Below, in pieces: positions 39,045-55,000 of a stretch of 64,000 nucleotides of DNA. Position 1 is the stretch's first letter, and every line of letters begins with the position of its first letter. This DNA comes from Pararhizobium sp. A13. GTDB taxonomy: Bacteria > Pseudomonadota > Alphaproteobacteria > Rhizobiales > Rhizobiaceae. The position numbers and the translations under genes are program-made. A model generated the notes under the pieces. The model was not told the origin of the DNA. It did no database searches and was given only the letters and a program-made list of their open reading frames with translations. The stretch covers positions 1,809,001-1,873,000 of the forward strand of contig NZ_CP149510.1 in assembly GCF_040126305.1 (NCBI RefSeq). The letters are read 5' to 3'.

Positions 39045-39540
39045 TTTTCTTTTAGCGATATCAGTCACTTACGTGATGTTGCTGTAGCTAATGAGTCCTA
39101 ATTTCAAGTCCGTTGTATGATCCATACCGTCGCCCTACCGAGTGCTACGGGTCAGACAGGGCAAGGCTTTGTCCACAGAATGTCATTTCATGCCGTCGAA
39201 TCGCTTTGCAGGCGGGATGATACCGCCTGATCCCAGTCCGGCCTGCATGTCGACCTCCACAAGCCGTGATCCCGCTGGACGCGCTGCCGGCGAGCTGGCT
39301 CTCCTCTCGCTCGGTATCGCATCAACCCTTGAGAACTGTATGGCTGCCGGCGCACAGGCGGTAGCCGAGGGCCGCGAACCCCGCGCAGCTCACAAATATG
39401 CTTGTGAACTTGAAGCAGCCCGCGAACTTGGCCGCGTAGCAATTCGTGCCGTTCGCCATGTCTGTTGGACTTGCGCACCCCCATCTGAAGGAAAGCCGAC
39501 AATTTCGATGAAGGAACGCCCTCGGTCCGGGCCAATTGGT
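39045..39540. other. Gene-poor stretch after tRNA-His
   Basis: No frame here reads like a known protein; open frames on both strands have atypical composition. It lies directly 3' of a tRNA, a common integration position, but I see no integrase and no second copy of the tRNA 3' end. It may be degenerate DNA. Confidence 0.4.
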
Positions 39541-39541
39541 C

Positions 39542-39570
39542 AAAAAAGGCCCGGCACCAAGGTGCCGGGC
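39542..39570 (-). terminator. Terminator downstream of the nitrate transporter gene
   Basis: GCCCGGCACC (39549-39558) and GGTGCCGGGC (39561-39570) form a stem followed on the minus strand by TTTTTTG. It lies 120 bases after the narK-like stop. Confidence 0.75.
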
Positions 39571-39689
39571 AGTGAGCAGGGTTTTGGCAATCCCTGCGGG
39601 GAAACGAATTGCTTGCTCGATCAACACGCGGCCATGGGGTCTGCCGGGACCGTGAAGGTGATCCGGCTACGGCGCCCCTTGGGGAGCAA

Positions 39690-40961: not shown

Positions 40962-41873
40962 TGCTTCTCCCGGCGCGTCGCACTGCGCCATTCAATCGTT
41001 GATGCTGGAAATGCCACGAACAACGCTCGCTCATCAGCGATCAGCGCGTCGATCTTGTTTGGCAACTTTGCTTCTGACGCGCGACATTGGGCGTCACCGG
41101 CGGTCTCTGCTCGGGCTTGTCACTATGAAGGCAAGCGACGTGCCAGATGGAGAAAATTTGATCTCGATGTAAATTCAAATATTTAGCCAGACAGTCTTTA
41201 ATCGGGCTTTGTAAGGTGGCCAAATAATAGCCTATTTCGGCGGCATTGCTCAATTAGTTGCGGCGTCTAGACACCATGACTGAGGCGGTTCAGCTGACCG
41301 CGCTCAGCAAGGAGCTGCGGGGTTGATCCACCTCGGCGCGGTTTCCGAGGCAAAGTAGGTTGTTTCCCGCCAGCAGCGTCCAATCGCACAATCTCGCATG
41401 GGCGAAGATTCTCCGCTGAAACGCTTCGTCGCGTGTCTCCTGGTGGAGGAACGAATAGCTTTCTGGAGCCCGTACTCGGCGCCAACGACCCAGGCCACCG
41501 CCGAATATGCGTCACGAGCACTGAGAATGACCCCGGTGACGAGGTCGCAAGCGTGCAGCTTGCTATTGATCGCGAAGTTACACAACGCGAGCATCCTGGG
41601 CGAGTCCGGCGTCTCCAGAGGAAGGCCAAACATGCTTCGGCAGGGGTGGCCGCTTCTGCCCAACTGATGGCCCAAAGAGTCCCAGCCTGTCGCCCTTCGA
41701 GTGAGTTGCAAGACGTCTCAGAGACGCTTCTGGTCGCCGTTGGGCAACAAACCCTGGTGTGCATGGCGAGGCGACAAGGCGCTCCAGACCAGTGATACAG
41801 CAGCGGCATGTATTGCCAAATGCAGGTAGGCCGCTTTCTGGATGAACCTCGCCCAAACGCTTCTGGATGAGGA
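40962..41873. other. 912-base region without a convincing gene
   Basis: Overlapping frames on both strands (for example 41267-41809 and 41304-41711 on minus, 41433-41795 on plus) have similar length and none reads as a known family. This is what decayed coding DNA looks like. The part next to narK (40962-41260) is AT-richer and probably carries its promoter. Confidence 0.4.
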
Positions 41874-42929
41874 TCACTTGAACTGTAAGGGAATCGCTAT
41901 GCCGCGTTTTGCCGCTTCTGCGGCCAGACGCGCGAGCGTGCCGGCGGCAATCGGAATTCCGTCCTCGATCCGTTTTTCCGCCAGGTCAAAACCGCGCTCC
42001 CCGGGCAATCGGACTTGGTCGACGCCCTCTGCCGGCGACAGGGACCGGATTGCGCCGGCAAGCTGTTCGATTTCGTCTTCGAACGGGATGTCCAATCCGA
42101 ATGCTCTCGGATCGATCGCGATAACCAGGCCGTTGAAGCCTGCGTCCCGCTTTTCCTTAAGGGCAACGGAGATGAGCGGATTGCCGCCGAGAAGGCTGAC
42201 GAGCACCTCAATCATCAGCGATAGGCCTGATCCCTTGGGTCCAGCCATGGGTAGCACGGCTTTGACCTGCGCCGGGTCGGTCGTCGCAACGCCGTTGGTA
42301 TCGACTCCCCAATCCGAGGGAATGGGCTTTCCTGCATCCCTGGCGGCCATAACCTTGCCAAGCGCCACGGCAGCCGTCGACATGTCGAGAAGGATGGGGC
42401 GATCCCGGTTGTTGCCGGGCGCGGCGATCGACAGGGGATTGGTCGAAACGCCTTCGCCCCGGGATCCGTGATAGACCATCAAAGGCTTGGACGCCGACAT
42501 GACGATGCCGATCATGCCGGCCTTTGCTACTCTCTCGGCGAAATAGCCGACCGCCCCGGCATGGCTGGTGCGCATGATGGAACAAAGGCCGATTCCGAAT
42601 TTCCCAGCAAGACCCACCGCTTTGTCAGCCGCCAGGGCCATGCCGGCGGCCCCCGGTGCACGATCGCCGTCGATAACGGCGATTGCCCCGAACTCACGTG
42701 CGAGCGCCGGTTTGGCATCACCCTTGACGATCCCGAGTTCGGCCATTTCGATATAACGCGGGATACGCAGCACGCCATGGGAATCGGCGCCGCGCAGATT
42801 GGCCCAGACCAGCAGTTCTGCGGTCTGGCGGGCGTAATCCGGCCTGAAGCCGCCCGCTTCCAGAAGAGAGGCGGAAAAGGCTTCAAGTGCATGCCGCGGG
42901 ATCAATTTTCTCGCCGGGGCCGCGTTCAT
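41874..42929 (-). CDS. Malate/L-lactate dehydrogenase (Ldh_2) family oxidoreductase
   Basis: NAD(P)-dependent dehydrogenase of the Ldh_2/YlbC family, 351 residues, cytoplasmic, oxidising or reducing 2-hydroxy/2-keto acids. Family marks are ANLRGADSHGVLRIPRY near 45-60 (catalytic His), ADKAVGLAGKFGIGLCSIMRTSHAG, MSASKPLMVYHGSRGEGVSTNPLSIAAP and GPKGSGLSLMIEVL. Its start overlaps the hydrolase stop by 4 bases (ATGA). It is the last gene of the FAH-dioxygenase-hydrolase arm, so it may reduce a keto-acid product of ring cleavage; the substrate is unknown. Confidence 0.88.
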   Translation of the reverse strand: MNAAPARKLIPRHALEAFSASLLEAGGFRPDYARQTAELLVWANLRGADSHGVLRIPRYIEMAELGIVKGDAKPALAREFGAIAVIDGDRAPGAAGMALAADKAVGLAGKFGIGLCSIMRTSHAGAVGYFAERVAKAGMIGIVMSASKPLMVYHGSRGEGVSTNPLSIAAPGNNRDRPILLDMSTAAVALGKVMAARDAGKPIPSDWGVDTNGVATTDPAQVKAVLPMAGPKGSGLSLMIEVLVSLLGGNPLISVALKEKRDAGFNGLVIAIDPRAFGLDIPFEDEIEQLAGAIRSLSPAEGVDQVRLPGERGFDLAEKRIEDGIPIAAGTLARLAAEAAKRGIAIPLQFK

Positions 42930-43813
42930 GACGCACCGCCGAGCGGAGACGGGAAGAATTTGTCGAGCCAGCCCTTGACCATCATTTTCGTGCGCGGCGC
43001 GTCGTTGGGTGCGAGCGGGAAATGCGCGGTCGTGTCGATCAGCATCAGTTCGCTCGGCTGGCCCGCCTTCTCGAACATCCGGATGGATTCGATGGTCGGC
43101 GTGATGATGTCATTTGCCGTGTGGAACAGAAGGAGCGGGCGCGGCGCGATATTGGCCACCACATCGTCAGCGCGGAAGTTATACATGGACCAGGCGGTTT
43201 CCACCGGAATTTCCATGATCGCCTTGGGCGAGAGGTTCTTGCGCAGATGTTCGGGGATCGGCACGGCGTCGAAGCGCGACATCCACAGGCTTTCACCGGT
43301 TTCCTGCTTGTGCTTGCGGCCGTTTTCAAGAATGCCGATGAACTTTTCCCAGGATTCCTGGGTGGGATGCTGGCCGCGGAACTTGCGCTCGCCATTGCCC
43401 CAGCCGCAGGAGGAAAGGCAGCAGGCAAAGCGGTCGTCGACACCGGAGGCATAGACCGACACCGCGGCGCCGAAGCTGTGGCCCGTGATGCCGATGCGCT
43501 TCGGATCGACTTCCTCGCGCTCGGCGAGGAAGGTCAGCGCGTTCTTGGCGTCGGCCACCTGGTCGAAGCAGCGAACCTGGGCGCGTTCACCCTCGCTTTC
43601 GCCGCATGAGCGGAAATCGAACCGCAGCGCGACATAGCCGAACGCTTCCATCATCTCGGCCTGGATCTGCGCGTGGCTTTCATCCTTCGAGCCGACAAAG
43701 CCGTGGCAGACGATAAAGGCCGGTAGCGTCTGGCCAGGCTTGCGTCCGTCCGGAACATGAAGAACGGCCGAAAGTTTCAGGCCATCGGACATGAAGGTCA
43801 GTTTTTCCTGCAT
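42926..43813 (-). CDS. Alpha/beta hydrolase
   Basis: Protein of 295 residues with the alpha/beta hydrolase fold. The oxyanion segment is CHGFVGSKDESHAQ near 37-50, the nucleophile Ser in GITGHSFGAAVS (near 126), a late Asp in HTANDIITPTIE, and the His in DTTAHFPL (near 268). It resembles short-chain esterase and acyl-peptidase-like hydrolases more than the BphD C-C hydrolases. It lies 21 bases after the extradiol dioxygenase gene and overlaps the Ldh_2 gene, so it probably hydrolyses an ester or a ring-cleavage product in the same pathway. Confidence 0.85.
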   Translation of the reverse strand: MQEKLTFMSDGLKLSAVLHVPDGRKPGQTLPAFIVCHGFVGSKDESHAQIQAEMMEAFGYVALRFDFRSCGESEGERAQVRCFDQVADAKNALTFLAEREEVDPKRIGITGHSFGAAVSVYASGVDDRFACCLSSCGWGNGERKFRGQHPTQESWEKFIGILENGRKHKQETGESLWMSRFDAVPIPEHLRKNLSPKAIMEIPVETAWSMYNFRADDVVANIAPRPLLLFHTANDIITPTIESIRMFEKAGQPSELMLIDTTAHFPLAPNDAPRTKMMVKGWLDKFFPSPLGGAS

Positions 43814-43834
43814 AGTCTTATACCTCGGTCTGGA

Positions 43835-44740
43835 TCAGACGATCTTGGCGAAGGGATGGAAATATTCGCGCCATTCGAGCGGCGCGGGCGTGCCCCAGAC
43901 ATTCATGTCGCGGACATTGCCCGGGCGGTCGAGATTGGTGATGACATTGGGGGTGAAGTCGGCGTCATCGGCGATATGGGCCATCACGCCCGAGCACTCG
44001 ATCATCATGCCGCTGGCATCGGTGTAATAGGCATAAGTGTTGTCGCCGGGGCGATGGCGGCCGGGGCCCCACATCAGCTGCCGGTCGAACCGGTCGAGAA
44101 TGTCGCCGAGGCGCAGATACTGGTTGAATTCCAGGAACTCGAAGGACACGTGATGCAGGCCGGCGGCGGCGCCCTTGACCAATCCCAAGACGTGGTGCTG
44201 GCGATTGCCGCCATACATCCAGCCCAAGGCGTCATTGACCATGCGTTCTGACAACCGCATGCCGCCGATCGCTTCGAGCTGGGCGCGGGTGACTTCCGGA
44301 TTCGGGGTGATCAGGTTGATGTGATCGATCCGGTTCGGGCCGACGCCTCTTGTCGGATAGCGCCGGCCATAGGTCTTGTTACGGATCGGGGTGTGTATTT
44401 CAAAGCGCAGCCCTTCCGGCGTCGCGAAGGTCACGCCTTGGGCGATGCAGTCGAGGCTCGGTTCGTGAGACAGTATCCGGCAACCGGCGCCTTTGACGCG
44501 GGATGCTGCCTCAGCCACCAGCTCCGGCGTCAGCGCCTCCAGCCCGATCGTATGGGCAGAGTTTTCGGTTGCATGAACCAGAACGAGTTCCGCGGCCCGC
44601 CCGTTCGAACTCAACCAGGTTTGGCTGGTGTCTTGATGCGTGACGTGCAGGCCGAGAATTTCGGTTGCATCACGAATAACAGCCTCTGGATCGGTGACAT
44701 TGACCTTCATGTGCCCGACGGCGTGCACGATGTGCGTCAT
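43835..44740 (-). CDS. Extradiol ring-cleavage dioxygenase (VOC family, catechol 2,3-dioxygenase-like)
   Basis: Two-domain type I extradiol dioxygenase, 301 residues. The likely Fe(II) ligands are His140 (RIDHINL), His196 or His197 (LHHVSFEF) and Glu248 (MMIECSG), the 2-His-1-carboxylate set, with Tyr in NTYAYYTD near 236-239. ATG 44740 is chosen because GGGAGGAAATC precedes it; the 18-residue upstream extension has no such site. It is predicted to open a catechol-type ring next to the diol. It has its own TTTCGAAA palindrome upstream and precedes the hydrolase and Ldh_2 genes. Confidence 0.88.
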   Translation of the reverse strand: MTHIVHAVGHMKVNVTDPEAVIRDATEILGLHVTHQDTSQTWLSSNGRAAELVLVHATENSAHTIGLEALTPELVAEAASRVKGAGCRILSHEPSLDCIAQGVTFATPEGLRFEIHTPIRNKTYGRRYPTRGVGPNRIDHINLITPNPEVTRAQLEAIGGMRLSERMVNDALGWMYGGNRQHHVLGLVKGAAAGLHHVSFEFLEFNQYLRLGDILDRFDRQLMWGPGRHRPGDNTYAYYTDASGMMIECSGVMAHIADDADFTPNVITNLDRPGNVRDMNVWGTPAPLEWREYFHPFAKIV

Positions 44741-44813
44741 GATTTCCTCCCTTGAATGCACTGAAGATAGGCTCTTACCGTTCTGATATCGCAAATATCC
44801 GACAATCGCAACA

Positions 44814-44843
44814 TATTTCGAAATAAAATAAAATATCGAAATT
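44814..44843. promoter_or_regulatory. TTTCGAAA palindrome upstream of the dioxygenase gene
   Basis: TATTTCGAAATA (44814-44825) is a perfect 12-base palindrome, followed by an imperfect copy AATATCGAAATT (44832-44843). It belongs to the motif set of the adjacent GntR regulator. Confidence 0.6.
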
Positions 44844-45690
44844 ATAACCAGACGTCGCTCTCGGCCGCCACGTCGTTGCGGAGCGTTCCAATTTTCTCGA
44901 TCTCCACCTCAACGACATCGCCGACACTCAGGAAGACGGGCGGCTTGCGCGTTGAGCCGAACCCCGATGGTGTGCCGGTGACGATGACGTCGCCTGGCTC
45001 GAGAACGGTGAATTGGCTGATGTAGGAAATCAGAAAGGGGATGGAAAAGATCAGCCGGCTGGTGTTGTTGCTCTGCCTGACTTCCCCGTTCACCCGCGTC
45101 GTCAGGGCGAGCCCGGTCGGGTCAGGCAAGTCGTCTGTCGACACCATCCATGGTCCGAAGCCTGCGGTCCTGACGAAATTTTTCCCCGGCGTGAACTGGG
45201 TCGAGTGCTTCTGCCAGTCGCGCACGCTGCCGTCGTTGAAACAGGCATAACCGGCGACGTGAGAAAGTGCATCTGCCTTGGCGATCCGCCGGCCCGTACG
45301 CCCGATGATGACGGCCAATTCGCCCTCGTAGTCGAACTTGTCCGAAATGTCCGGTTTCGGCAGTGGCTCTCCGTGTCCCGTCTGTGATGCAGCGAAGCGG
45401 GAGAAGAGCAGTGGAAACCCTGGCTCGTCTCTCTCCTCTTCACCGGGCTCACGATAGTTGGTGGCGACGCACAGAACCTTTGAGGGACTGGGGATGATCG
45501 GAAGATAGCGGATTGCATCGAGCGTAAAGTCGGGCTCAAGACCCGTTTCCGACCCGAGGCGCGAAAAATTTGCTGCGATGTAGGCGGCGAGGTCCGGCAG
45601 GCCGCTCCGTTTCCCGAGGTCCGCGACGGCATCGTTCACGATGCAGCCGTAGCGCGCCTGCCCGTTGTGCATGAAACTCAAGTAGCGCAA
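44842..45690 (-). CDS. Fumarylacetoacetate hydrolase (FAH) family protein
   Basis: Protein of about 282 residues. Start TTG 45690 (MRYLSFMHNGQARYG) is chosen because GGAGG lies 6 bases upstream and the result matches family length; the frame stays open further but would run through a 16-base palindrome. Metal-binding acidic residues are in KFDYEGELAVIIG near 108-120, followed by GYACFNDGSVRDWQ and the C-terminal GDVIVTGTPSGFG. FAH proteins cleave or hydrate/isomerise 2-keto acids made by meta cleavage, which fits the dioxygenase just downstream. Confidence 0.88.
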   Translation of the reverse strand: MRYLSFMHNGQARYGCIVNDAVADLGKRSGLPDLAAYIAANFSRLGSETGLEPDFTLDAIRYLPIIPSPSKVLCVATNYREPGEEERDEPGFPLLFSRFAASQTGHGEPLPKPDISDKFDYEGELAVIIGRTGRRIAKADALSHVAGYACFNDGSVRDWQKHSTQFTPGKNFVRTAGFGPWMVSTDDLPDPTGLALTTRVNGEVRQSNNTSRLIFSIPFLISYISQFTVLEPGDVIVTGTPSGFGSTRKPPVFLSVGDVVEVEIEKIGTLRNDVAAESDVWL

Positions 45691-45701
45691 ACTGGGCCTC
45701 C

Positions 45702-45717
45702 ATATTTTCGAAAATAT
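45702..45717. promoter_or_regulatory. Perfect 16-base palindrome upstream of the FAH gene
   Basis: ATATTTTCGAAAATAT overlaps the region just 5' of the FAH ribosome site. It is the best copy of the cluster's shared motif and is well placed for repression. Confidence 0.7.
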
Positions 45718-45802
45718 ACGGATTATCGTAAACATCGGCCGCAAACGCATGGCAAGGCAAAAATCCGGTGCGATGACAAAAAATTTCAACAACATTGATT
45801 TT

Positions 45803-45810
45803 TTTCGAAA
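45803..45810. promoter_or_regulatory. TTTCGAAA motif upstream of the GntR gene
   Basis: TTTCGAAA within a T-rich tract (TTTTTTCGAAATTTTTT, 45800-45816), 64 bases before the GntR start. It suggests autoregulation. Confidence 0.5.
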
Positions 45811-45874
45811 TTTTTTGTACTTAAGCGTGACAACTTTCGTGCAGAGCGCGTGTCGGCGACTTAAGGAGAAGCAC

Positions 45875-46609
45875 TTGGAAACTCAGAAGACGGGTGGAGA
45901 AACAAGAGCCGGCGACGTGCTGCAGCGCATGCGGCTGGACATCATCAATTGTGTCTTGAAACCGGGCGAGAAGCTGCGCTTCGAGGCGCTCAAGACCATG
46001 TACAACGTGAGTTTTTCCACGCTCCGTGAAGCGCTGTCGCGGCTGGCAGCGGAAAGCCTGGTCGTTTCGGAGGGGCAGCGCGGCTTCATGGTCGCGCCCG
46101 TTTCGATCGCCGATCTCAATGATTTGACGGATGTACGTGTTCTCGTCGAGCGCGAGGCGTTGGCCAAGGCGATCGGCAATGGCGACGATCGCTGGGAAGC
46201 CAATATCCTGTCGACCTATCACCGCATGGACAAGCTGCAGCAGCGTCTGGGCCGGGAATACTATCTCTCGGAGGAATGGAGCGCCGTGCACGGCGAATTC
46301 CATTATTCTCTGGTTGCGGCGTGCAGGTCGCCGGTGCTGCTCGAAATACGAAGCAAGTTGTTCGAGCGCGCGCATCGCTACCGGCGTATGTCCTCCCAGT
46401 TTCGCACCCAGTGGCGCGAGAAGGGCGCCGAGCACAAGATGATCGCGGACGCGGCTCTGGATCGCGATGTGGAGAGCGCGCTTCGACTGATCGACCGTCA
46501 TATCCGCGAGACGAGCGAGAATGTCATCGAGCATGCCGGCCATCTTTTCCCCGATCGCAAGACGGGGCTTCCCTTCAAATCCAAACGTTTCGAAGACGCA
46601 GCCCAATAA
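45875..46609 (+). CDS. GntR-family regulator with FCD domain
   Basis: FadR-subfamily regulator, about 244 residues. Start TTG 45875 is supported by AAGGAGAA 4 bases upstream; a longer frame from 45749 would run through the operator. The winged helix lies near 20-75 (RLDIINCVLKPGEKLRFEAL, STLREALSRLAAESLV). The all-helical FCD ligand domain follows, with metal/acid-binding positions in EWSAVHGEFHYSL and EHKMIADAALDRD. It is flanked by both arms of the catabolic cluster, whose promoters share TTTCGAAA palindromes, so it is the probable local repressor. The effector is unknown. Confidence 0.88.
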   Translation: METQKTGGETRAGDVLQRMRLDIINCVLKPGEKLRFEALKTMYNVSFSTLREALSRLAAESLVVSEGQRGFMVAPVSIADLNDLTDVRVLVEREALAKAIGNGDDRWEANILSTYHRMDKLQQRLGREYYLSEEWSAVHGEFHYSLVAACRSPVLLEIRSKLFERAHRYRRMSSQFRTQWREKGAEHKMIADAALDRDVESALRLIDRHIRETSENVIEHAGHLFPDRKTGLPFKSKRFEDAAQ

Positions 46610-46773
46610 GAAAGCGCCTCGCGATTCCGCGGCTGGTTGAAGCTCCAAACCCAGGCGAACAGGGTCGGGGCCGATACTCCTATTGTCGAACAGGAGCGAT
46701 GATCGGGGGGCTTTTCGCAATTCTGAAAAAGTGGGCCATCGTCAGATGAATCGCAAATTTTACGAAAACAGTT

Positions 46774-46789
46774 GAAATTTCGAAAATTC
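46774..46789. promoter_or_regulatory. TTTCGAAA palindrome upstream of the dehydrogenase gene
   Basis: GAAATTTCGAAAATTC is a 16-base inverted repeat with one mismatched pair, 82 bases before the dehydrogenase start. It is the fourth copy of the cluster motif. Confidence 0.6.
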
Positions 46790-46870
46790 TCGGTTACGAA
46801 AACACTCAGGCGGAGGAGCGCCAGATCCAATCCCAGGGTCTTTTTGGTTTTCGTATAGGAGGAGGAATTC

Positions 46871-47986
46871 ATGTCCATTCCGCAGACAATGACCGCTGCG
46901 CGTATGCACAGCGTCGGCGGCGAGTTGAAACTCGAAACGCTCGAGACCCCGAAACCCGGCGACATGGATGTGCTGGTCCGCGTAAGAGCCTGCGGCATCG
47001 TGCCCAATCTCGGCAACATCCTGGCCAACTGGACGACGTGGTTTCCGCACATGCCGCTGCCGCCGCTTCCTGCCGTCTTCGGCCTCGATCCGGCGGGTGA
47101 AGTTGCGGCGGTCGGCCGGCAAGTGCACGGATTGAAGCCCGGTGACCGGGTCTATGTGAACCCGGGCAGAAGCTGCGGATCATGCCGTCACTGCCGTCGT
47201 GGAGACTCCATCTCCTGCAAGCACTATGCGTTTCAGGGATATTTTGGCTTCTCCGAACATGCCATGCAAACCTTTGCGGACTATCCGATTGGCGGCCTGA
47301 GCGAATACATGGTCGCGCCCGTTTCCGCGATCGTGAAGATCCCGGAAAATATGGCCTACGACCAGGCCGCCCGCCTCGGCTATCTCGGCACGGCTTATTC
47401 GGCGCTCCGGAAGGTCAATGCGGGTCCAGGCGATACAATTCTTGTCAACGGCCTGAGCGGAACACTTGGCATTGGGGCTGCAATCTTTGGCCTGGCCATG
47501 GGCGTCAACAAGATCCTTGGCACCGGGCGCGACAAGAAGCTTCTGGAAGAGATCAAGGCGCTGGCGCCAAATCGCATCGAGGTCTTCTCCATCGACGACG
47601 GTAGTGTCACCGATTTCGCGATGACGCACACGGATGGCGAAGGCGTTGACGCCTTTCTTGACTGCCTCGGTCCGGGCGGGCTGCACGAAACGTTCCTGCA
47701 GGGCCTGCATAGTCTGCGCCGTGGCGGTATCGCCGTCGATATCGGCGCAATTGCTGGTCCCGTGAGCATCGACGTTCACCGCTTGATGGATCGCAATCAA
47801 CGCCTTTACGGGTCGGCGTGGCTCACCACGGCCGAAGGCCAGGAGATGGCTGACATGGTTGCTTCCGGCGTTGTCGATCTGTCTATTTTGGAAACGCAGA
47901 GCTATCCGCTTTCAGAGGTCAACAAGGCGATTTCCGGCATCGCCCAGCGCCACGGCGGCTTCTCGAACTACGTAATCTGCCCCTGA
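46871..47986 (+). CDS. Zinc-type alcohol dehydrogenase (MDR family) with altered catalytic site
   Basis: Medium-chain dehydrogenase, 371 residues. Cys41 (RACGIV) matches the first catalytic-zinc ligand, and Cys102, 105, 108 and 116 form the structural-zinc lobe. The usual GHE that follows is replaced by GLD (VFGLDPAGEV near 70-79), so the catalytic zinc site is abnormal. The nucleotide fold is near NGLSGTLGIGAAIFGLAMG. ATG 46871 follows GGAGGAGG. It is the first gene of the plus-strand arm, with a GntR-type palindrome upstream, and may act on an alcohol or aldehyde of the pathway. Confidence 0.88.
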   Translation: MSIPQTMTAARMHSVGGELKLETLETPKPGDMDVLVRVRACGIVPNLGNILANWTTWFPHMPLPPLPAVFGLDPAGEVAAVGRQVHGLKPGDRVYVNPGRSCGSCRHCRRGDSISCKHYAFQGYFGFSEHAMQTFADYPIGGLSEYMVAPVSAIVKIPENMAYDQAARLGYLGTAYSALRKVNAGPGDTILVNGLSGTLGIGAAIFGLAMGVNKILGTGRDKKLLEEIKALAPNRIEVFSIDDGSVTDFAMTHTDGEGVDAFLDCLGPGGLHETFLQGLHSLRRGGIAVDIGAIAGPVSIDVHRLMDRNQRLYGSAWLTTAEGQEMADMVASGVVDLSILETQSYPLSEVNKAISGIAQRHGGFSNYVICP

Positions 47987-48003
47987 GTTTCAAAAAAGCC
48001 GTC

Positions 48004-48028
48004 GGGGTTGCCTTTGGTGGGCAACCCC
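48004..48028 (+). promoter_or_regulatory. Hairpin between dehydrogenase and cupin genes
   Basis: GGGGTTGCC (48004-48012) pairs perfectly with GGCAACCCC (48020-48028), loop 7. There is no T-run, so partial attenuation or mRNA processing is possible. Confidence 0.45.
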
Positions 48029-48059
48029 ATCCAAATGACCGATGACGTGGGAGGATGTC

Positions 48060-48599
48060 ATGACTTTCAGACGCGTGGTAACCGCAAAAAATTCTGCCGG
48101 CAAAACCATTGTTGTCAGCGATGGGGTGTCACCCCGCGAGCTGGCGCTCCGGCACACGCCTGGCTTCATTTCCGCGCCGATCTGGTCTGTAGGGAGCGTT
48201 CCGACGCTGCCGTATGACGGCAAGGATCCGATGGCAGACAACGGAACCTTGCTCCAGCCGGCCGGCGGCTCGACCTTCCTCGTCGTCACGTTCCCGCCGG
48301 ACTCGGTGATGATGTCGACCGACTTCCGGCCGGAGCTTGCCGGCCCGGAACATCTTGCCGCGGCTCCCGGTATCGCGGAAACGTTCGAAATGGAAAATCC
48401 CGGCATGCACACCACGCCGACACTGGACTACGGTATTGTCCTCAGCGGCAGGGTGACCCTGGAGCTCGATGATGGCGCGACCGTCAATCTGAATGCGGGA
48501 GACACATTCGTCCAGCACGGCGCGCGCCACGCCTGGCGCAATCCGAGCAGTGGGCCCACAACGGTGGCTTTTGTGCTGATCGGCGCCCAGACCCGGTAA
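48060..48599 (+). CDS. Cupin-domain protein
   Basis: Protein of 179 residues. ATG 48060 is preferred (GGGAGGA upstream) over an in-frame ATG 6 codons earlier. The C-terminal half is a single cupin barrel: MHTTPTLDYGIVLSGRVTL (motif 1) and GDTFVQHGARHAWRN (motif 2), with His residues that could hold a metal. The N-terminal half (VVTAKNSAGKTIVVSDG) is a beta-rich lead typical of a rhizobial/actinobacterial cupin group. It could be an isomerase, a dioxygenase-like enzyme or a small-molecule binder; the reaction is unknown. It follows the dehydrogenase gene in the GntR-controlled arm. Confidence 0.8.
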   Translation: MTFRRVVTAKNSAGKTIVVSDGVSPRELALRHTPGFISAPIWSVGSVPTLPYDGKDPMADNGTLLQPAGGSTFLVVTFPPDSVMMSTDFRPELAGPEHLAAAPGIAETFEMENPGMHTTPTLDYGIVLSGRVTLELDDGATVNLNAGDTFVQHGARHAWRNPSSGPTTVAFVLIGAQTR

Positions 48600-48679
48600 A
48601 CGCCCGGCTTTGCCAATTGCGGGGCACTAGGCCAAGCCTGATATCGACCAAAGCAGCGCGGCCAATCTTTTCTCGAAGA

Positions 48680-49624
48680 TCAGCCGCGGTCAGGAAGCGT
48701 TTCTGCGTCACTGACCCGGTCGGACACAACTTCGCGGGCGACGTCGGCCAATAGCTGCCGGGCCCAGCGATGCAGCCCGGAGCGGTGCGTGCGCTCCGTC
48801 CAATAGATGTCGATCTCGATCGGCGTATGGATCGGGAAGCTGCGGACGGCGAGCGTATCCTGATAGGCGCTGGCGAGCCGGTTCGGAATTGTTGCAACCA
48901 GATCCGTTCCGACGATCATCAGCTCCAGACTGTCGTGGCTCGGAAGCGTCAACTGCGGCTTCAACGCAATATCGCGAGCCCTCAGGGCTTCGAAATAGAG
49001 CGCCTGCCATTGGCCGTTGTGCGTGATGGCCACATGAGCGGCCTCCCGGTAGCGCGCGAGCGTCAATTCTCCGTCTGCCAACGGATTCTTCCGGTCCATG
49101 ACGCAGGAATAGTGGTCGACAAACAATCGCCGACGGAAGTAGCCTTCGCCCAGGATGCGCACGGGCCCGAGCACGATGTCGGCGATATTTTCCTTGAGCT
49201 GCTGTTTTCCGTTTACGGCCGATTCCAGAATGTTGAGAAGGGCGTTGGGGGCTTCCTGGCGCATGGCTTTCAGGAAGGCCGGCACCAGAAGAAAACGTTC
49301 ATGGTGATTGCAGGACAGCGTCACCGAGCCTTCCGCTGTCATGGGATCGAATTCGGAAGGGACGGCAATCGCAAGCATGCGGTTGACGATCTCACGCGCC
49401 TGCGAAACGAGTTCGCCGCATTTTTCCGTTCCGGTGATCTGGTTGCCCTGCCGCACGAACAGGGGGTCGCCGAATGCCTTCCGCAGCCGCTCGATTGTAT
49501 AGCTCGCGGTGGACTGGCTGACGCCGAGATGCGCCGCTGCCGCGGAGAAGGACCCCGTGTCGTGCACGGTGACAAGCAGTTGCAGTGATCTGATGTCAAT
49601 CTGCGCCAGCTCTTCCGGGATCAC
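48680..49624 (-). CDS. LysR-family regulator, divergent from the P450 operon
   Basis: NodD/NahR-like LysR regulator of about 314 residues. GTG 49624 is chosen because AGGAGAGG lies 4 bases upstream; the ATG at 49660 would put the 21-base palindrome inside the coding region. The winged helix is near 10-65 (LQLLVTVHDTGSFSAAAAHLG, STASYTIERLRKAFGDPLF), then a PBP2-type ligand domain. The HTH and FVRQGNQITGT resemble regulators of aromatic degradation. It probably activates the P450-ferredoxin-reductase genes. Confidence 0.88.
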   Translation of the reverse strand: MIPEELAQIDIRSLQLLVTVHDTGSFSAAAAHLGVSQSTASYTIERLRKAFGDPLFVRQGNQITGTEKCGELVSQAREIVNRMLAIAVPSEFDPMTAEGSVTLSCNHHERFLLVPAFLKAMRQEAPNALLNILESAVNGKQQLKENIADIVLGPVRILGEGYFRRRLFVDHYSCVMDRKNPLADGELTLARYREAAHVAITHNGQWQALYFEALRARDIALKPQLTLPSHDSLELMIVGTDLVATIPNRLASAYQDTLAVRSFPIHTPIEIDIYWTERTHRSGLHRWARQLLADVAREVVSDRVSDAETLPDRG

Positions 49625-49637
49625 TTTGCCTCTCCTA

Positions 49638-49658
49638 GTCATCGAAATATTCGATGAC
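49638..49658. promoter_or_regulatory. LysR-type operator between the regulator and the P450 gene
   Basis: Perfect 9-base inverted repeat GTCATCGAA (49638-49646) and TTCGATGAC (49650-49658), spaced by 3. It contains a T-N11-A LysR box (49642-49654), lies 14 bases upstream of the LysR start and about 80 upstream of the P450 start. Confidence 0.7.
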
Positions 49659-49736
49659 ATCCATCGTATCCATCCAATTGTCAGAATGGAAGTGCGGTAT
49701 TACGATTCATGAAAGTTCATTGCTTGGGAGGGCAAT

Positions 49737-50945
49737 ATGGGAGTGCAAGCCACCATTGAGGAGACCCCGTCAGCCGTACCGGCCATTTCGGACGTGACGT
49801 TTGCCGAGTTGTTGAGCGACCCCTATCCCACTTTCAAGCGTGCCCGCGAACTGGCTGCCATCGTCCGGATCGAGGCCGCCAATATCATGATCGCTACGCG
49901 CTATGAGGACATCATGGCGATGGAGCGCGACGCAGAAACATTCTCCTCTGTCAATCCGCAGTCGCTGGTCAACAAGGTCATGGGCCATACGATGATGCGC
50001 AAGGATGGCGAGGCGCATGCCCGCGAACGCAAGGCGGTCGAACCGGCTTTGCGCCCCGGAGCGGTCAAATCCTGCTGGGCGCCAAAGCTTGAAGCCATTC
50101 TTGACGACGTGATGGCCGGCTTCGAGACAAACGGTGAGGCCGACCTCTTCACCGCGCTCGCAGCCCCCATGGCAGGCCGGGCGCTGGCGGCAGTCCTCGG
50201 TTTTCTCGATGTCGATTGGCAGACCATGGCGCTCTGGTCACAGTCGCTCATCGACGGCGCGGGCAACTATTCCGGCGATCCGGAAATTTCCCGCAAGGCA
50301 GCCGAGGCCGCCGGCGGCGTGGAACAGGCGATCGACGGCGCGCTCCCCTATCACCGGGAAAATCCGAATATGTCGGTTCTTTCCTCGATGATCCATGCGG
50401 ATGATCCCCATACGATCGATCAGATCTACGCCAACATCAAGGTGGCGGTTGGCGGCGGCTTGAACGAGCCGCGCGATTCCATCCTGACCCTTGTTCTCGG
50501 TCTGCTGGAAAATCCCGACCAGCTCGAGAGGGTCAAGGCCGACCCCAATCTCTGGCCGGTGGCGTTCGAGGAGTCCGTCCGCTGGATCTCGCCGATCGGC
50601 ATGTATCCGCGCCGCGTGACGCGCGACGTCATCTTTTCCGGCGTGCAGCTGCGGGCCGGTGACCAGATCGGCCTTTGCGTTGGTGCGGCCAACCGCGACG
50701 ACAGCCGTTTCGAGGATCCGGACCGTTTCAACGTCTTCCGCGAAAAGAAGTCGCATCTCGCCTTCGGCGCCGGGCCGCATTTCTGTGCCGGAACCTGGGT
50801 TGCGCGCCACATGGTCGGCCGTCTCGTCGTGCCGAGACTGTTCGAGCGGCTCAAGAATTTGCGGCTGCGCGACCGCGCCGATGTGCATATCCAGGGCTGG
50901 GTTTTCCGCGGCCCGACCACGCTCCCGGTCGCCTGGGACGTCTAA
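49737..50945 (+). CDS. Cytochrome P450
   Basis: Soluble bacterial P450, 402 residues. The heme-binding loop is FGAGPHFCAG with the thiolate Cys350, the K-helix ExxR is Glu279-Arg282 (EESVRW), and the I-helix stretch is GGGLNEPRD at 239-247. The last departs from the normal (A/G)Gx(D/E)T: no acid-threonine pair is visible, as in some terpene and aromatic-ether P450s. ATG 49737 follows GGGAGGG. Ferredoxin and reductase genes follow directly, giving a complete class I electron chain. The substrate is unknown; the cluster suggests an aromatic or cyclic compound made into a diol or demethylated. Confidence 0.93.
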   Translation: MGVQATIEETPSAVPAISDVTFAELLSDPYPTFKRARELAAIVRIEAANIMIATRYEDIMAMERDAETFSSVNPQSLVNKVMGHTMMRKDGEAHARERKAVEPALRPGAVKSCWAPKLEAILDDVMAGFETNGEADLFTALAAPMAGRALAAVLGFLDVDWQTMALWSQSLIDGAGNYSGDPEISRKAAEAAGGVEQAIDGALPYHRENPNMSVLSSMIHADDPHTIDQIYANIKVAVGGGLNEPRDSILTLVLGLLENPDQLERVKADPNLWPVAFEESVRWISPIGMYPRRVTRDVIFSGVQLRAGDQIGLCVGAANRDDSRFEDPDRFNVFREKKSHLAFGAGPHFCAGTWVARHMVGRLVVPRLFERLKNLRLRDRADVHIQGWVFRGPTTLPVAWDV

Positions 50946-50957
50946 CAGGAGGATATC

Positions 50958-51278
50958 ATGCCCAACATCACATTCATCCTTCCCGATGGGAAGGAACAAT
51001 CCTGCACGGCCAGAGAAGGCCTGAGCCTCATGGAAGTCGCACTCCAGAATGCGGTGCCCGGCATCATCGCCGAATGCAACGGTTCGGCAGCCTGCGCCAC
51101 CTGTCACATCATCCTCGATGATGCGTTGGCATCCTTGGTTCATCCGATCAGCGAGCATGAGAACGACATGCTGGACTTTACCGCCGCCCCGCGCGCACCC
51201 GGCAGCCGCCTGAGCTGTCAGATCAAGGTGGACGGGCGCCTGGACGGTGCAACCGTCCGCATTCCAGCCGAGATGTAA
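50958..51278 (+). CDS. 2Fe-2S ferredoxin (putidaredoxin/adrenodoxin type)
   Basis: Protein of 106 residues with cluster ligands Cys40, Cys46, Cys49 and Cys87 (spacing 5, 2 and 37), as in adrenodoxin-type ferredoxins that serve P450s. ATG 50958 follows AGGAGGATATC, 12 bases after the P450 stop. It carries electrons from the adjacent FAD reductase to the P450. Confidence 0.95.
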   Translation: MPNITFILPDGKEQSCTAREGLSLMEVALQNAVPGIIAECNGSAACATCHIILDDALASLVHPISEHENDMLDFTAAPRAPGSRLSCQIKVDGRLDGATVRIPAEM

Positions 51279-51282
51279 GCTG

Positions 51283-52431
51283 ATGATCAAGAAGATAGTC
51301 ATCGTCGGTGCGGGGCAGGCGGGTTTGGCCGCAGCCGCAAAGCTGCGCCAGGAAGGTTTTCAAGGCTCGATCACCATGCTTGGCGACGAGAACGCGATGC
51401 CGTATCAGCGCCCGCCGCTCAGCAAGGCCTATCTCCTGGGACAGATCGAGGCAGAGCGTCTGTTTTTTCGGAACAACGATTTCTTCCACCAGCAGAACAT
51501 CGGCATTTCTCAGAATGAGCCGGCGTTGGAGATCGACAGGGCTGCAAAAGACGTGGTGACCGCACATGGCCGGCATGGCTACGACCAGCTCATCCTCGCG
51601 ACAGGCGCCGGCCCGATCAAGCTGCCTACCTCTATGGCCGAGGGTATCGGCAATATCTTCTACCTCCGCAACAAGGCTGATGCGGATCGTTTGCGCCCCA
51701 TTCTGAGGGAAGGCGCGCGGCTTCTCGTCGTCGGCGGCGGTTATATCGGCCTCGAGGTTGCAGCGGCCGCGCGGCAGGTCGGAGCCGAGGTGACGCTTGT
51801 AGAGATGGCACCGCGCATTCTCAACCGGGTCGCAGCCGAGCCGACCGCGTCGTATTTTCGCCGCTTGCACAGCTCCCAGGGCGTCGACATCCGCGAAGGC
51901 ACCGGGCTGGCCGGGCTCAAGCCGGACGGTGCAGCCATCATGGCCACATTGGCGGACGGGCCAAAGCTCACCATCGATGCGGTCGTGGTCGGCATCGGCG
52001 TGCGCCCGAATGCGGCACTTGCCGAGGCGGCAGGACTGGCAACCGACGGCGGTATCGTCGTGGACGAATTCGGCAAGAGCTCCGATCCCTCGATCTGGGC
52101 CGCCGGCGACTGCGCATCCTTTTCCTATGAGGGCGAAAGAACCCGCATCGAATCCGTGCCGCATGCCATCGACCAGGCCGAACATGTCGCCCGCAATATT
52201 CTCGGGGCCGAGCTGCCCTATTGTCCCCGGCCCTGGTTCTGGTCGGATCAATATTCGACCAAATTGCAGATTGCCGGCTTCAACCGCGGTTATGATCGCG
52301 CGACCGTCTCCCACGGCATTGCCGAAGGCAGCATGACCGTTTCCTATTTTCAGAAAGAACGGCTGATCGCGGTCGACTGCCTCAACGATGCACGCAGCTT
52401 CATGCTGGCAAAACGTCAGCTTGGCCTCTGA
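51283..52431 (+). CDS. FAD-dependent ferredoxin reductase (putidaredoxin reductase type)
   Basis: Protein of 382 residues. FAD motif IVIVGAGQAGLAAAAKLRQEG at 5-25, NAD motif LLVVGGGYIGLEVAAAAR near 148-165, and WAAGDCASF near 275-283, followed by the reductase C-terminal domain. It starts 4 bases after the ferredoxin stop, so translation is coupled; an earlier in-frame start at 51247 would overlap the ferredoxin gene. It transfers NAD(P)H electrons to the ferredoxin. Confidence 0.93.
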   Translation: MIKKIVIVGAGQAGLAAAAKLRQEGFQGSITMLGDENAMPYQRPPLSKAYLLGQIEAERLFFRNNDFFHQQNIGISQNEPALEIDRAAKDVVTAHGRHGYDQLILATGAGPIKLPTSMAEGIGNIFYLRNKADADRLRPILREGARLLVVGGGYIGLEVAAAARQVGAEVTLVEMAPRILNRVAAEPTASYFRRLHSSQGVDIREGTGLAGLKPDGAAIMATLADGPKLTIDAVVVGIGVRPNAALAEAAGLATDGGIVVDEFGKSSDPSIWAAGDCASFSYEGERTRIESVPHAIDQAEHVARNILGAELPYCPRPWFWSDQYSTKLQIAGFNRGYDRATVSHGIAEGSMTVSYFQKERLIAVDCLNDARSFMLAKRQLGL

Positions 52432-52507
52432 TCCCGTGTTCAAGGTTCAGCCATTGCCGCAATGTCGAACCGTTAGTCCGCCAAGGCTTCAATTCTAGTC
52501 AGCCCGC

Positions 52508-52536
52508 GTCTGGGCCGGTCCATTGGCCGGCCAGAC
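52508..52536. terminator. Hairpin between convergent reductase and gcdH genes
   Basis: GTCTGG (52508-52513) plus CCGG (52515-52518) pair with CCGG (52527-52530) plus CCAGAC (52531-52536), with one bulged G. There is no T-run, so its role as a terminator is uncertain. Confidence 0.35.
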
Positions 52537-52588
52537 GTACAGGTTGCACCGTTTGCAGTTCAAGGAGAGGTCGTGCCCGCGCCGCCCG

Positions 52589-53800
52589 TCAGAAAAACGC
52601 CTGGATGCCGGTCTGCGCGCGGCCGAGGATCAGGGCATGGACGTCATGCGTGCCCTCATAGGTGTTGACCGTTTCCAGGTTCTGCGCGTGGCGCATGACA
52701 TGGTACTCGATCTGAATGCCGTTGCCGCCGTGCATGTCGCGGGCCTGGCGCGCGATATCGAGCGCCTTGCCGCAGTTGTTGCGCTTGACGATCGAGATCA
52801 TTTCCGGTGCGAATGTGTGCTCGTCCATCAGGCGCCCGACGCGCAAGCTCCCCTGCAGGCCGAGGGCGATTTCCGTCTGCATGTCGGCGAGCTTCTTCTG
52901 GTAGAGCTGCGTGCCAGCCAGCGGCTTGCCGAACTGGATGCGGTCGAGGCCATATTGGCGGGCGCGCAACCAGCAGTCCTCGGCGGCGCCGAGCACGCCC
53001 CACGAAATACCGTAGCGGGCTCGGTTCAAGCAGCCGAAGGGACCGGCAAGGCCGGAGACGCCGGGCAGCAGTGCATCTTCTCCGACCTCGACGCCGTCCA
53101 GCACGATCTCGCCGGTGATCGAGGCGCGCAGCGACAGCTTGCCGCCGATCTTCGGTGCTGACAGGCCCTTCATGCCCTTTTCGAGGATGAAGCCGCGAAT
53201 CTTGCCGTCATGTGCTTCCGACTTGGCCCAGACGACGAACACATCGGCGATCGGCGCGTTCGAAATCCACATCTTGGAGCCGCGCAGGCGGTAACCGCCG
53301 TCGATTTTCTCGGCGCGGGTCTTCATGCCGCCGGGATCGGAACCGGCATCCGGTTCGGTCAGGCCGAAGCAGCCGATGAGCTCGCCCGACACGAGGCCAG
53401 GCAGGTATTTGTCACGCTGAGCCTCGGAGCCATAGGCATAGATCGGATACATCACGAGCGAGGACTGGACGCTCATCATCGAGCGGTAGCCGGAATCGAT
53501 GCGCTCGACTTCGCGCGCGACGAGACCATAGGCGACATAGTTGGCGTTGGCCGCGCCATACTTCTCCGGCAGCGTCACGCCAAGCAGGCCGGCCTTGCCC
53601 ATGAGCCGAAAGAGCTCGGGATCGGTGTGCTCATTGAGATAAGCTTCCTGGACGCGCGGCAGCAGTTCGGCCTCAGCGAAAGCCGCGGCGGAGTCGCGGA
53701 TCATCCGCTCTTCGTCGGAAAGCTGGTCGTCAAGCAGGAACGGGTCGTTCCAGGCAAATGTGCTGGTTTGGGAAGCGCTTTTAGCATGGTTGGCGGACAC
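52589..53800 (-). CDS. gcdH: Glutaryl-CoA dehydrogenase
   Basis: Acyl-CoA dehydrogenase of 403 residues that oxidatively decarboxylates glutaryl-CoA to crotonyl-CoA (lysine, tryptophan or benzoate-type catabolism). GcdH-type marks are [54 protein letters not shown] and the C-terminal [15 protein letters not shown] with the catalytic Glu. It is divergent from a LysR gene in the position of GcdR/GcvA-like regulators. No electron-transfer flavoprotein gene is adjacent. Confidence 0.93.
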
Positions 53801-53836
53801 GGATTTTCCCTCGGAAAAGAGTGTAAAGTGGCTTGC

Positions 53837-53906
53837 CTATGTACATAGCGATTGCTGTTTGCGGCGAAAAACCCTATCTAGACGTAACTTCATGCATAAA
53901 ATGCAT
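53837..53906. promoter_or_regulatory. Palindromes between gcdH and its LysR regulator
   Basis: CTATGTACATAG (53837-53848) is a perfect 12-base palindrome. ATGCATAAAATGCAT (53892-53906) is an inverted repeat spaced by 3, just before the LysR start. Both are candidate LysR sites. Confidence 0.5.
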
Positions 53907-53914
53907 AGGCTAAC

Positions 53915-54829
53915 ATGCGCCCGCGCCGTTTTCTTCCTTCGATAAGTCTCCTGTCCGCCTTCGAAGCCGTGTTGCGAACCGGCTCAACCGCTGCTGCAGC
54001 GCGCGAACTCGATCTGACGCAGAGCACTGTGAGCCGTCTGATCCAGCATCTGGAACAACAATTGGGGCGGCCGCTGTTCGAGCGTCACAAGCAAAAACTC
54101 ATTCCGACGGCGGCTGCACAGGCCTATGGCCGGGACGTCACCCGCGCGCTCGACCTCATCCAGCGGGGCAGCATGGAATTCGCGGCCAATCCGGGCGGGG
54201 GGTCTCTGTCCCTTGCGATCCTGCCGGCCTTCGGCACCCGATGGCTCGCGCCACGGCTCGGGGATTTCCTCGTTCACCACCCCGGCGTCACCGTCAATCT
54301 CGCAACCCGCCTCAAGCGGTTCAATTTTGCCGCCGAGAGCTTTGACGCTGCTATTCATTTCGGCACCGACGACTGGCGCGACGCTGGCCATATGAAGCTG
54401 TTCGAAGAACGGCTGACCGCCTGCATATCGCCAACGCTGCTCGCCCGGCATCCGGTTGACAGCGCCCGTGATTTGGCCGGATTGCCGTTGCTGCAGTTGG
54501 AAACAAGACATGATGCCTGGAGAACCTGGTTTGCTGCGCAAGGCATCGAACCGCCGAATATCGCAGGCATGTTGTTCGACCAATTTGCGACGATGACACA
54601 AGCCGCGATTGTCGGGCTGGGCGTGGCCCTTCTTCCGGACTATCTCGCCGAGATCGAACTCAAGGAGGGGCGCCTTGTGCCACTTCTCAGGAGATCGGTC
54701 CGGGGCTCCGGCTCCTACTGGTTGGTCTGGCCGCAATCGCGCGCCAACTATCCGCCGCTCAGCGCATTTCGCACATGGCTCGCCGCGGAAGTCTCTACTG
54801 ATCAGACGGAACCGTGGAGACTTCAATAG
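53915..54829 (+). CDS. LysR-family regulator, GcvA-like, probably of gcdH
   Basis: Protein of 304 residues. It opens MRPRRFLPSISLLSAFEAVL with the winged helix to about residue 70 (LTQSTVSRLIQHLEQQLGRPLFER). The ligand domain has the GcvA-like start (LSLAILPAFGTRWLAPRL). The divergent layout with gcdH and the palindromes between them make it the likely regulator of glutaryl-CoA oxidation. Confidence 0.88.
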   Translation: MRPRRFLPSISLLSAFEAVLRTGSTAAAARELDLTQSTVSRLIQHLEQQLGRPLFERHKQKLIPTAAAQAYGRDVTRALDLIQRGSMEFAANPGGGSLSLAILPAFGTRWLAPRLGDFLVHHPGVTVNLATRLKRFNFAAESFDAAIHFGTDDWRDAGHMKLFEERLTACISPTLLARHPVDSARDLAGLPLLQLETRHDAWRTWFAAQGIEPPNIAGMLFDQFATMTQAAIVGLGVALLPDYLAEIELKEGRLVPLLRRSVRGSGSYWLVWPQSRANYPPLSAFRTWLAAEVSTDQTEPWRLQ

Positions 54830-54907
54830 TCTGGAGCGGGCCGGACGATCCTTCTCGGTGAGGTGGACATTTCAGCTGGCGGCACGTCCTGGCAACAGTC
54901 GCGGACA

Positions 54908-55000
54908 TCATTGCCTGTCATAAACCGGCGGTTTCAGTTCATCGACGATATGTTCGACGGTGACGATCGAGCGTCTGGCAGCTGACCTGCCATGGAACTT
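54908..55000 (-). pseudogene. Possible relic of a CoA-transferase subunit A gene
   Basis: A short minus-strand frame between stops reads SAARRSIVTVEHIVDELKPP. This resembles the (A)ARRTIVTVEEIVDE segment of class I CoA-transferase alpha subunits. There is no start, no glycine-rich CoA site and no neighbour subunit, so if real it is a small remnant. The rest of 54830-55127 shows nothing recognisable. Confidence 0.3.

Follow-up and report, generated by a model that had tools for sequence, protein, structure and literature searches.

A cytochrome P450 and extradiol ring-cleavage cluster on an accessory island of Pararhizobium sp. A13, a candidate route for an O-methylated plant aromatic

Do a cytochrome P450 system and a set of ring-cleavage genes lying side by side in Pararhizobium sp. 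A13 serve a single catabolic pathway, or do they only share an insertion site? The question is raised by positions 41874–52431 of a 64,000-nucleotide stretch (hereafter, the window) of the 6.36-Mb genome, where eleven genes form two arms. On the GntR side, genes for an Ldh_2 dehydrogenase, an alpha/beta hydrolase, an extradiol dioxygenase, and a fumarylacetoacetate-hydrolase (FAH) family protein on the minus strand are followed by those for a GntR regulator, a zinc-type dehydrogenase, and a cupin on the plus strand; on the LysR side, the regulator gene on the minus strand is followed by P450, ferredoxin, and reductase genes on the plus strand. A preliminary description of this DNA had listed these genes and the absence of a Rieske oxygenase; all the named genes were found between these limits, and there was no Rieske oxygenase among the ten proteins covered by our Pfam profile scan. 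The arrangement is beyond chance because the same genes recur together in other genera. On balance, and with moderate confidence, we read the block as a single accessory island that serves the catabolism of an O-methylated aromatic from plants, in which demethylation by the P450 would precede extradiol cleavage to pyruvate and an acid, most likely glutarate. The P450, supplied with electrons via the ferredoxin and reductase, would remove a methyl group to leave a catechol; the type I extradiol dioxygenase would open the catechol ring next to the hydroxyls; and the hydrolase, the two dehydrogenases, and the FAH enzyme would degrade the opened ring to pyruvate and a carboxylic acid. The GntR protein would control the ring-cleavage arm and the LysR protein the P450 arm. 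The analysis establishes the gene content, the catalytic residues and fold of the dioxygenase, the linkage, the operator sequences, and the accessory insertion, whereas all reactions, the substrate, binding by the regulators, and the glutarate exit are inferred.

The two arms belong together in rhizobia. All 12 plasmid records with a dioxygenase of at least 68% identity also carried the P450, 1.5 to 11 kb apart, and the dioxygenase was present in 12 of the 14 plasmids with a P450 of at least 74% identity, the two records without it being from Rhizobium phaseoli. The linkage recurred in Mesorhizobium and Bradyrhizobium, so that the arms were found linked on 12 of 12 plasmids and in four genera. 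In two Sinorhizobium loci that were opened (NGR234 and CCGM7), a GntR gene of 67–74% identity stood beside the P450 arm. Over 23 taxa, the P450 distances were correlated with those of the dioxygenase (r = 0.91) and of the hydrolase (r = 0.97). The bacteria with the cluster on large plasmids came from bean, pea, lentil, soybean, and other legumes. The cluster of Rhizobium phaseoli R630 (L041) looks decayed: its dioxygenase, GntR, LysR, P450, and ferredoxin genes were found, the hydrolase and Ldh_2 genes were not, and the reductase gave a partial match.

The ring-cleavage core is older and wider than its linkage with the P450. A scan of named genomes for dioxygenase relatives yielded 78 loci with flanks of about 10 kb, of which 22 were shorter than 20 kb and were kept in the denominators; two of them (L066 and L078) are the same places as L026 and L027. 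Genes were counted by tblastn with identity thresholds chosen per family. Beside the dioxygenase, the hydrolase was found in 76 loci, Ldh_2 in 74, GntR in 65, FAH in 55, the zinc-type dehydrogenase in 30, and the cupin in 29. Three kinds of front end accompanied this core, namely the P450 in 17 loci (with the LysR gene in 16 of these), an MhpA-type (3-hydroxyphenylpropionate-type) hydroxylase in 20, and a DesA/LigM-type (folate-type) O-demethylase in 3. The other 50 loci had no front end within the flanks, and a TctC-type transporter receptor gene was present in 31 of these 50 vs. 4 of the 28. In Mesorhizobium L-8-3, a DesA/LigM-type demethylase occupied the slot held by the P450 in other mesorhizobia, beside the same LysR gene. 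This placing of two unrelated demethylases in one slot is the best evidence that the P450 would act as an O-demethylase; the exchange was found once. The demethylase of L026 is named only by type because its scores are close to, but under, the cutoffs (566 vs. 800 bits for NF047633 and 538 vs. 580 bits for NF047885).

Other genes also accompanied the core. An FMN-reductase-like gene often lay between the dioxygenase and hydrolase genes in L094, L101–L103, and L105–L115, many of which had tripartite tricarboxylate transporter genes. Downstream of the core in loci of the Mesorhizobium type (L066–L069, L071, L072, and L075–L077) were a second zinc-type dehydrogenase, an Amidohydro_2 protein, a LigK-type aldolase, and, in most, a TetR gene.

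The best match of the P450 in the Protein Data Bank (PDB) was 6g71 (E 2.7e-96), with 156 of 387 aligned residues identical (40.3%), followed by 8u09, GcoA entries (some named aromatic O-demethylase), and 9ia1, after which the ranking dropped. The nearest named solved relative is therefore GcoA, an aromatic O-demethylase, ranked below two unnamed entries of which the best reached 40% identity; P450s are assigned to a family at about 40% identity or more to a member. The window P450 and 6g71 share the I-helix segment GGGLNEPRD, and the heme Cys region is also common to them; at the I-helix position where many P450s have an acid–alcohol pair, the window P450 and three printed matches read E-P. 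The entries 6g71 and 8u09 are titled only as cytochrome P450, and we take 6g71 to be Arthrobacter CYP1232A24, which presumably demethylates methoxylated phenylacetates (homovanillate/papaverine). Papaverine was considered as a substrate and is not claimed, the link having depended on this assumed identity; the literature covered yielded a genome announcement (PMC4440947). No paper naming the presumed papaverine P450 surfaced in multi-term literature queries, which would miss name-only mentions. With separate genes for the ferredoxin and the FAD reductase, the system falls outside the GcoAB class, which the accessible text of PMC6021390 describes as a P450 with a single fused 2Fe-2S/FAD/NADH reductase. 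From these resemblances and the exchange of front ends, we propose that the P450 is an aromatic O-demethylase. More distant relatives of the P450 (at most 50% identity) sit in other surroundings. On plasmids of Rhodococcus opacus and R. pyridinivorans (L038 and L039), related P450, ferredoxin, and reductase genes accompany FAH, carboxymuconolactone decarboxylase-like, and hydrolase genes, and L038 additionally has a protocatechuate-dioxygenase-like gene.

The dioxygenase has the 2-His-1-carboxylate metal site and the two-domain VOC fold of the type I extradiol enzymes. With the full metal site, it keeps the equivalents of H200, H248, and Y257, residues with a role in homoprotocatechuate 2,3-dioxygenase (HPCD). 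In an alignment of 11 rows, HPCD Arg292 and Trp304 correspond to the invariant R273 and W286, and the position of HPCD Arg243 is Trp220, likewise invariant. Arg292, Trp304, and Arg243 hold the substrate carboxylate in HPCD, roles for which a literature source was sought and not found, and the residue set of the window enzyme would fit a carboxyalkyl-substituted catechol. The dioxygenase reached no curated equivalog cutoff, scoring 90.2 bits vs. 321.4 for the HpaD model TIGR02295 and 88 bits vs. 320.2 for the catechol 2,3-dioxygenase model TIGR03211. Structure models of the dioxygenase and hydrolase were of middling confidence (pLDDT 73.6 and 72.0) and do not decide the substrate; in structural comparison the former tied with several extradiol families, and the latter was closest to 7qjm and to esterases. 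We propose that the hydrolase is a C–C hydrolase of the ring-cleavage product, with an esterase as the alternative, and that the Ldh_2 enzyme oxidizes or reduces a keto-acid intermediate. For the FAH protein, the best NCBIfam models were 2,4-didehydro-3-deoxy-L-rhamnonate hydrolase (168 bits, cutoff 500) and the HpaG decarboxylase (167 bits). It is proposed as a hydrolase of a 2,4-dioxo acid or as a hydratase/decarboxylase; the hydrolase reading would fit and is unproved because the HpaG model scores almost level.

For the acid, we propose an exit as glutarate through glutaryl-CoA, by way of the adjacent glutaryl-CoA-dehydrogenase-like (GcdH-like) enzyme together with a CoA-transferase, a 3-hydroxybutyryl-CoA dehydrogenase, and an electron-transfer flavoprotein (ETF) of the second replicon. 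If the side chain is a propanoate, the carbon atoms of a dihydrocaffeate-like catechol after loss of formate add up to pyruvate and glutarate, and the exit genes would be accounted for. GcdH-like genes occurred in 11 of the 78 loci, in eight lineages (Rhizobiales R129_N, Bradyrhizobium, Antarcticirhabdus, Microvirga, Leisingera, a Rhodobacterales strain, Hoeflea, and Pacificibacter), and GcdH or a CoA-transferase in 21; with three copies in 6.36 Mb, a random 20 kb of the A13 genome would hold such a gene about 1% of the time by arithmetic. The window enzyme scored below the cutoff of NF045552 (200 vs. 470 bits), a model that covers one lineage (its name ends in Des). Its pairing with the divergent GcvA-like LysR gene also occurs in S. 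sojae, GLR17, and CB3090, and the partner CoA-transferase of S. sojae scored 531 against a cutoff of 750 for the succinate–glutarate CoA-transferase model. The second replicon of A13 (L127, 470000–489900) carries LysR, GcdH, CaiB, HBDH, and Etf genes beside a branched-chain-type ABC transporter and a cupin, and Rhizobium sp. Pop5 has a similar transporter and cupin (71–83% identity) a few kilobases after the P450 arm.

The arms appear to be linked yet separately switched, as judged from their predicted operators. The palindrome ATTTTCGAAA(A/T)T lies upstream of FAH/GntR and of the zinc-type dehydrogenase, and its exact form occurs at just two places in the genome, both in this block (reversed control, 0). 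Allowing one mismatch, it was found in 66 of the 78 loci, including all 17 P450 loci; in 65 of the 66 it lay no more than 400 bases from the 5′ end of a core gene. Of four permuted palindromes with unchanged composition, three were found in none of the 78 loci and one in 2. Among the 12 loci without it at this setting were Leisingera L080 and several loci of Bradyrhizobium whose dioxygenase identity is about 57%. The palindrome follows FAH and the dehydrogenase where these are separated (L048 and L118), in Bradyrhizobium SRL28 its position is between the GcdH and dioxygenase genes, and a few sites are intragenic (L032:7570, L042:12385, and L099:15144). Only sites with zero or one mismatch were used because at up to two mismatches the window has 4 sites against 2.3 expected, a number reached in 18 of 100 shuffles and hence no higher than chance. 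Pyridine nucleotide transhydrogenase genes adjoin the cluster in several Rhizobium loci (L032 at 16922–19952, L033, L044, L048, and L118), and in GLR17 they are preceded by the GntR-type site.

The palindrome of the P450 promoter differs from that of the GntR side. The predicted LysR box has no second exact site in the genome and is present with at most two mismatches in 11 aligned loci; a second LysR-like site with one mismatch (C1:1740361) was dropped, as it lies inside a CheA-like gene. The promoter element ATCGTATCCATCCAATTG, expected 0.02 times per window at up to three mismatches, was identical in 11 of 11 aligned rhizobial loci, had one mismatch in L034, and had no match among the scanned loci of Mesorhizobium and Bradyrhizobium. 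The loci of these promoter alignments, 11 on the P450 side and 7 on the GntR side, were hand-chosen. The best-supported sequence of events is still that of the preliminary description, demethylation to a catechol and then meta cleavage, with arms that stay together in rhizobia; given the separate regulators and operators, joint induction of the arms is at most a possibility.

The block is accessory and sits beside a tRNA-His gene (38968–39044). The P450 and the dioxygenase had no match at E 1e-60 in three genomes of the same genus, all of which kept the left-hand kinase gene and the right-hand gene at 58137. From tRNA-His to the LysR gene at 55128, the distance is 16.1 kb in the window vs. 2.0 kb in one of these genomes (G234), where none of the genes of the block lies in between; two other genomes of the genus (G175 and G103) have other DNA at the tRNA-His site. 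No tRNA-end repeat of at least 14 bases was found downstream of tRNA-His. The block lies where the preliminary description had placed it but is larger, as the variable stretch spans about 39100–55100 and takes in the GcdH-like gene and its regulator (52589–54829). A NarK-like MFS transporter gene (39690–40991; 212 bits, cutoff 312) also lies inside it.

Several observations weigh against a single pathway or its glutarate exit. Eight Sinorhizobium plasmids had a P450 near 67% identity and no dioxygenase match at E 1e-20, and shared species history alone could yield the correlated distances. The regulators are separate, and no GntR-type site was seen at the Rhizobium P450 promoter in the loci aligned or scanned. 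At least one of the three activating enzymes was found in just 28 of the 78 loci. GcdH or CaiB lay within the flanks of just 4 of the 17 P450-bearing loci, and eight P450-bearing loci of the Mesorhizobium type (one titled only Bacterium) had neither, with the LigK-type aldolase gene downstream; the one aldolase of this type tested exceeded its curated cutoff. An aldolase exit is possible in these loci because the aldolase gene is present and GcdH and CaiB are not. In addition, the FAH gene of the companion locus (second replicon) is spread over two reading frames in comparison with Pop5, many esterases are among the nearest solved relatives of the hydrolase, and our account of activity, inducer, and metabolites is drawn from the genes themselves.

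Part of this evidence would also fit two unrelated pathways, one for detoxification by the P450 and one for meta cleavage, that have different inducers and occupy the same insertion hotspot. Separate regulators and operators, the 61 of 78 loci whose core has no P450 within the 10-kb flanks, the eight Sinorhizobium plasmids, and the other DNA at the same site in two genomes of the genus all speak for this explanation. We nevertheless consider it unlikely, given the linkage in 12 of 12 plasmids and four genera, rearranged gene orders that still keep the arms together, the GntR gene beside the P450 arm in NGR234 and CCGM7, and the exchange of the P450 for another O-demethylase at the same position. 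The preliminary description had named separation of the arms in relatives, with induction by unrelated compounds, as the finding that would count against it, and this is half the case: the arms do occur apart, as these loci and plasmids show, and they are linked in rhizobia.

A less probable explanation is that the cluster degrades a flavonoid or isoflavonoid that is methylated, and that its dioxygenase and hydrolase work as in the A-ring cleavage of the fde and ifc systems. Many plasmid carriers came from legumes, but the core also occurs in Rhodobacterales and Acetobacteraceae, which are not known as legume symbionts, and the recurring glutaryl-CoA genes would have no obvious use in flavonoid cleavage. 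The window hydrolase weakly matches 2,6-dihydroxypseudooxynicotine hydrolase (2jbw, 28 bits), and, according to the accessible text of PMC11069340, the ifc and fde clusters contain, besides a flavin monooxygenase and a glyoxalase-type dioxygenase, cupins and an alpha/beta hydrolase with the same weak likeness. Least probable is that the P450 hydroxylates or N-demethylates its substrate, with the remaining pathway as proposed: identity of about 40% to the nearest solved enzyme is too low to settle which reaction is catalyzed, and the P450 may be the sole ring-activating enzyme, MhpA having had no match in the A13 genome at E 1e-30 (an empty answer that is weak evidence alone), but O-demethylation is indicated both by the nearest group of named PDB entries and by the replacement with DesA.

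The preferred reading could be extended, tentatively and with some doubt, to an undescribed aerobic pathway widespread in Alphaproteobacteria. A carboxyalkyl catechol (e.g., dihydrocaffeate) would arise from O-methylated phenylpropanoids through interchangeable enzymes of the P450, folate-dependent, or flavin type and be cleaved by a new extradiol clade; the product might then be deformylated and oxidized to a 2,4-dioxo acid, from which the FAH enzyme would release pyruvate and glutarate with no aldolase involved and with glutaryl-CoA to follow.

Table 1. Genes and predicted regulatory sites of the P450 and ring-cleavage block, in window positions
Feature	Position	Strand	Evidence
Ldh_2 family dehydrogenase	41874..42929	-	PF02615, 330 bits (Pfam)
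Alpha/beta hydrolase	42926..43813	-	Pfam match; 66–94% identity across 24 chosen relatives
Type I (VOC) extradiol ring-cleavage dioxygenase	43835..44740	-	PF00903
FAH family protein	44842..45690	-	PF01557, 226 bits; TTG start with GGAGG
GntR operator 1 (predicted), palindrome ATTTTCGAAAAT	45704..45715	.	One of just two ATTTTCGAAAWT sites genome-wide
Degenerate third GntR-type site, upstream of GntR	45801..45812	+	Two mismatches; inside block conserved in 7 aligned loci
GntR-FCD regulator	45875..46609	+	PF07729, PF00392
GntR operator 2 (predicted), upstream of zinc-type dehydrogenase	46776..46787	.	
Zinc-type (MDR) dehydrogenase	46871..47986	+	PF08240, PF00107
Cupin	48042..48599	+	PF07883
LysR regulator, P450 arm	48680..49660	-	Pfam
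Predicted LysR box GTCATCGA-N5-TCGATGAC	49638..49658	.	
Promoter element ATCGTATCCATCCAATTG (18 bases)	49663..49680	+	
Cytochrome P450, proposed aromatic O-demethylase	49737..50945	+	PF00067
2Fe-2S ferredoxin	50958..51278	+	NCBIfam fdx_isc, 55 bits, under cutoff 132
FAD ferredoxin reductase	51247..52431	+	PF07992, PF14759; HcaD-type 321 bits, cutoff 450
GcdH-like enzyme	52589..53800	-	One of three genome copies; inside accessory stretch
LysR (GcvA-like) regulator, divergent from GcdH-like gene	53915..54829	+	

Mechanical start calls were too long for the FAH, dioxygenase, and GntR genes, and the limits in Table 1 are those favored by ribosome-binding sites. In the annotated GLR17 relative, the dioxygenase agrees in length, GntR is one codon longer, and FAH is eight codons longer. 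Relatives of the reductase begin near 51283, vs. 51247 here.

Because legume bacteria carry the block on large plasmids, rhizobia may use it to grow on methoxylated compounds of roots or to detoxify them. If the proposed route is correct, a three-component P450 O-demethylase could be useful for lignin monomers, an extradiol clade without an assigned substrate and its conserved GntR operator would be named, and the loci would offer a test of how a single lower pathway comes to be joined to different upper pathways. No title or abstract start in the literature covered, which mostly excludes subscription journals, describes this cluster in rhizobia. Aromatic genes were induced in a root-exudate transcriptome of Rhizobium phaseoli, and the main text of that report, in the part accessible, does not mention dioxygenase, P450, fumarylacetoacetate, transhydrogenase, or ferredoxin (PMC8581550).

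Among described systems, fde of Herbaspirillum and ifc of Variovorax resemble the block in their described gene content, and no bacterial P450 system is reported for them in the accessible text of PMC11069340. HPCD of the hpa pathway has a similar fold and metal site, and the FAH protein resembles HpaG, but the dioxygenase scores far under the HpaD cutoff and has Trp220 in place of Arg243. The tetralin (thn) pathway of Sphingopyxis granuli TFA, as far as the accessible text of PMC6563040 describes it, combines extradiol cleavage with a CaiB CoA-transferase, a glutaryl-CoA dehydrogenase, and flavoprotein subunits and is a described precedent; its first enzyme is a ring dioxygenase complex, and it yields pimelic semialdehyde and pyruvate, whereas neither a Rieske oxygenase nor a pyruvate aldolase was among the fifteen window proteins scanned. 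The closest likeness in architecture is to agcAB/aphAB/aphC of Rhodococcus, a pathway for alkylguaiacols and alkylphenols, where, according to the accessible parts of PMC13101465 and PMC6710988, a P450 O-demethylase and a flavin hydroxylase converge on a catechol, and extradiol cleavage yields pyruvate and an acyl-CoA, the genes lying on a putative genomic island. The logic that the preliminary description had put forward as a new pathway is therefore already known. The proteins are different: the Rhodococcus P450 is described with one reductase partner and not with a ferredoxin and a reductase; the dioxygenase is not an AphC ortholog, with 17–19% identity to AphC (7q2a) in a structural alignment; and the lower enzymes and regulators differ, the exit here appearing to be glutaryl-CoA. 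The overall route is of a known kind, and this block, with the same architecture built from different and largely uncharacterized enzymes, is a variant of it rather than a new kind.

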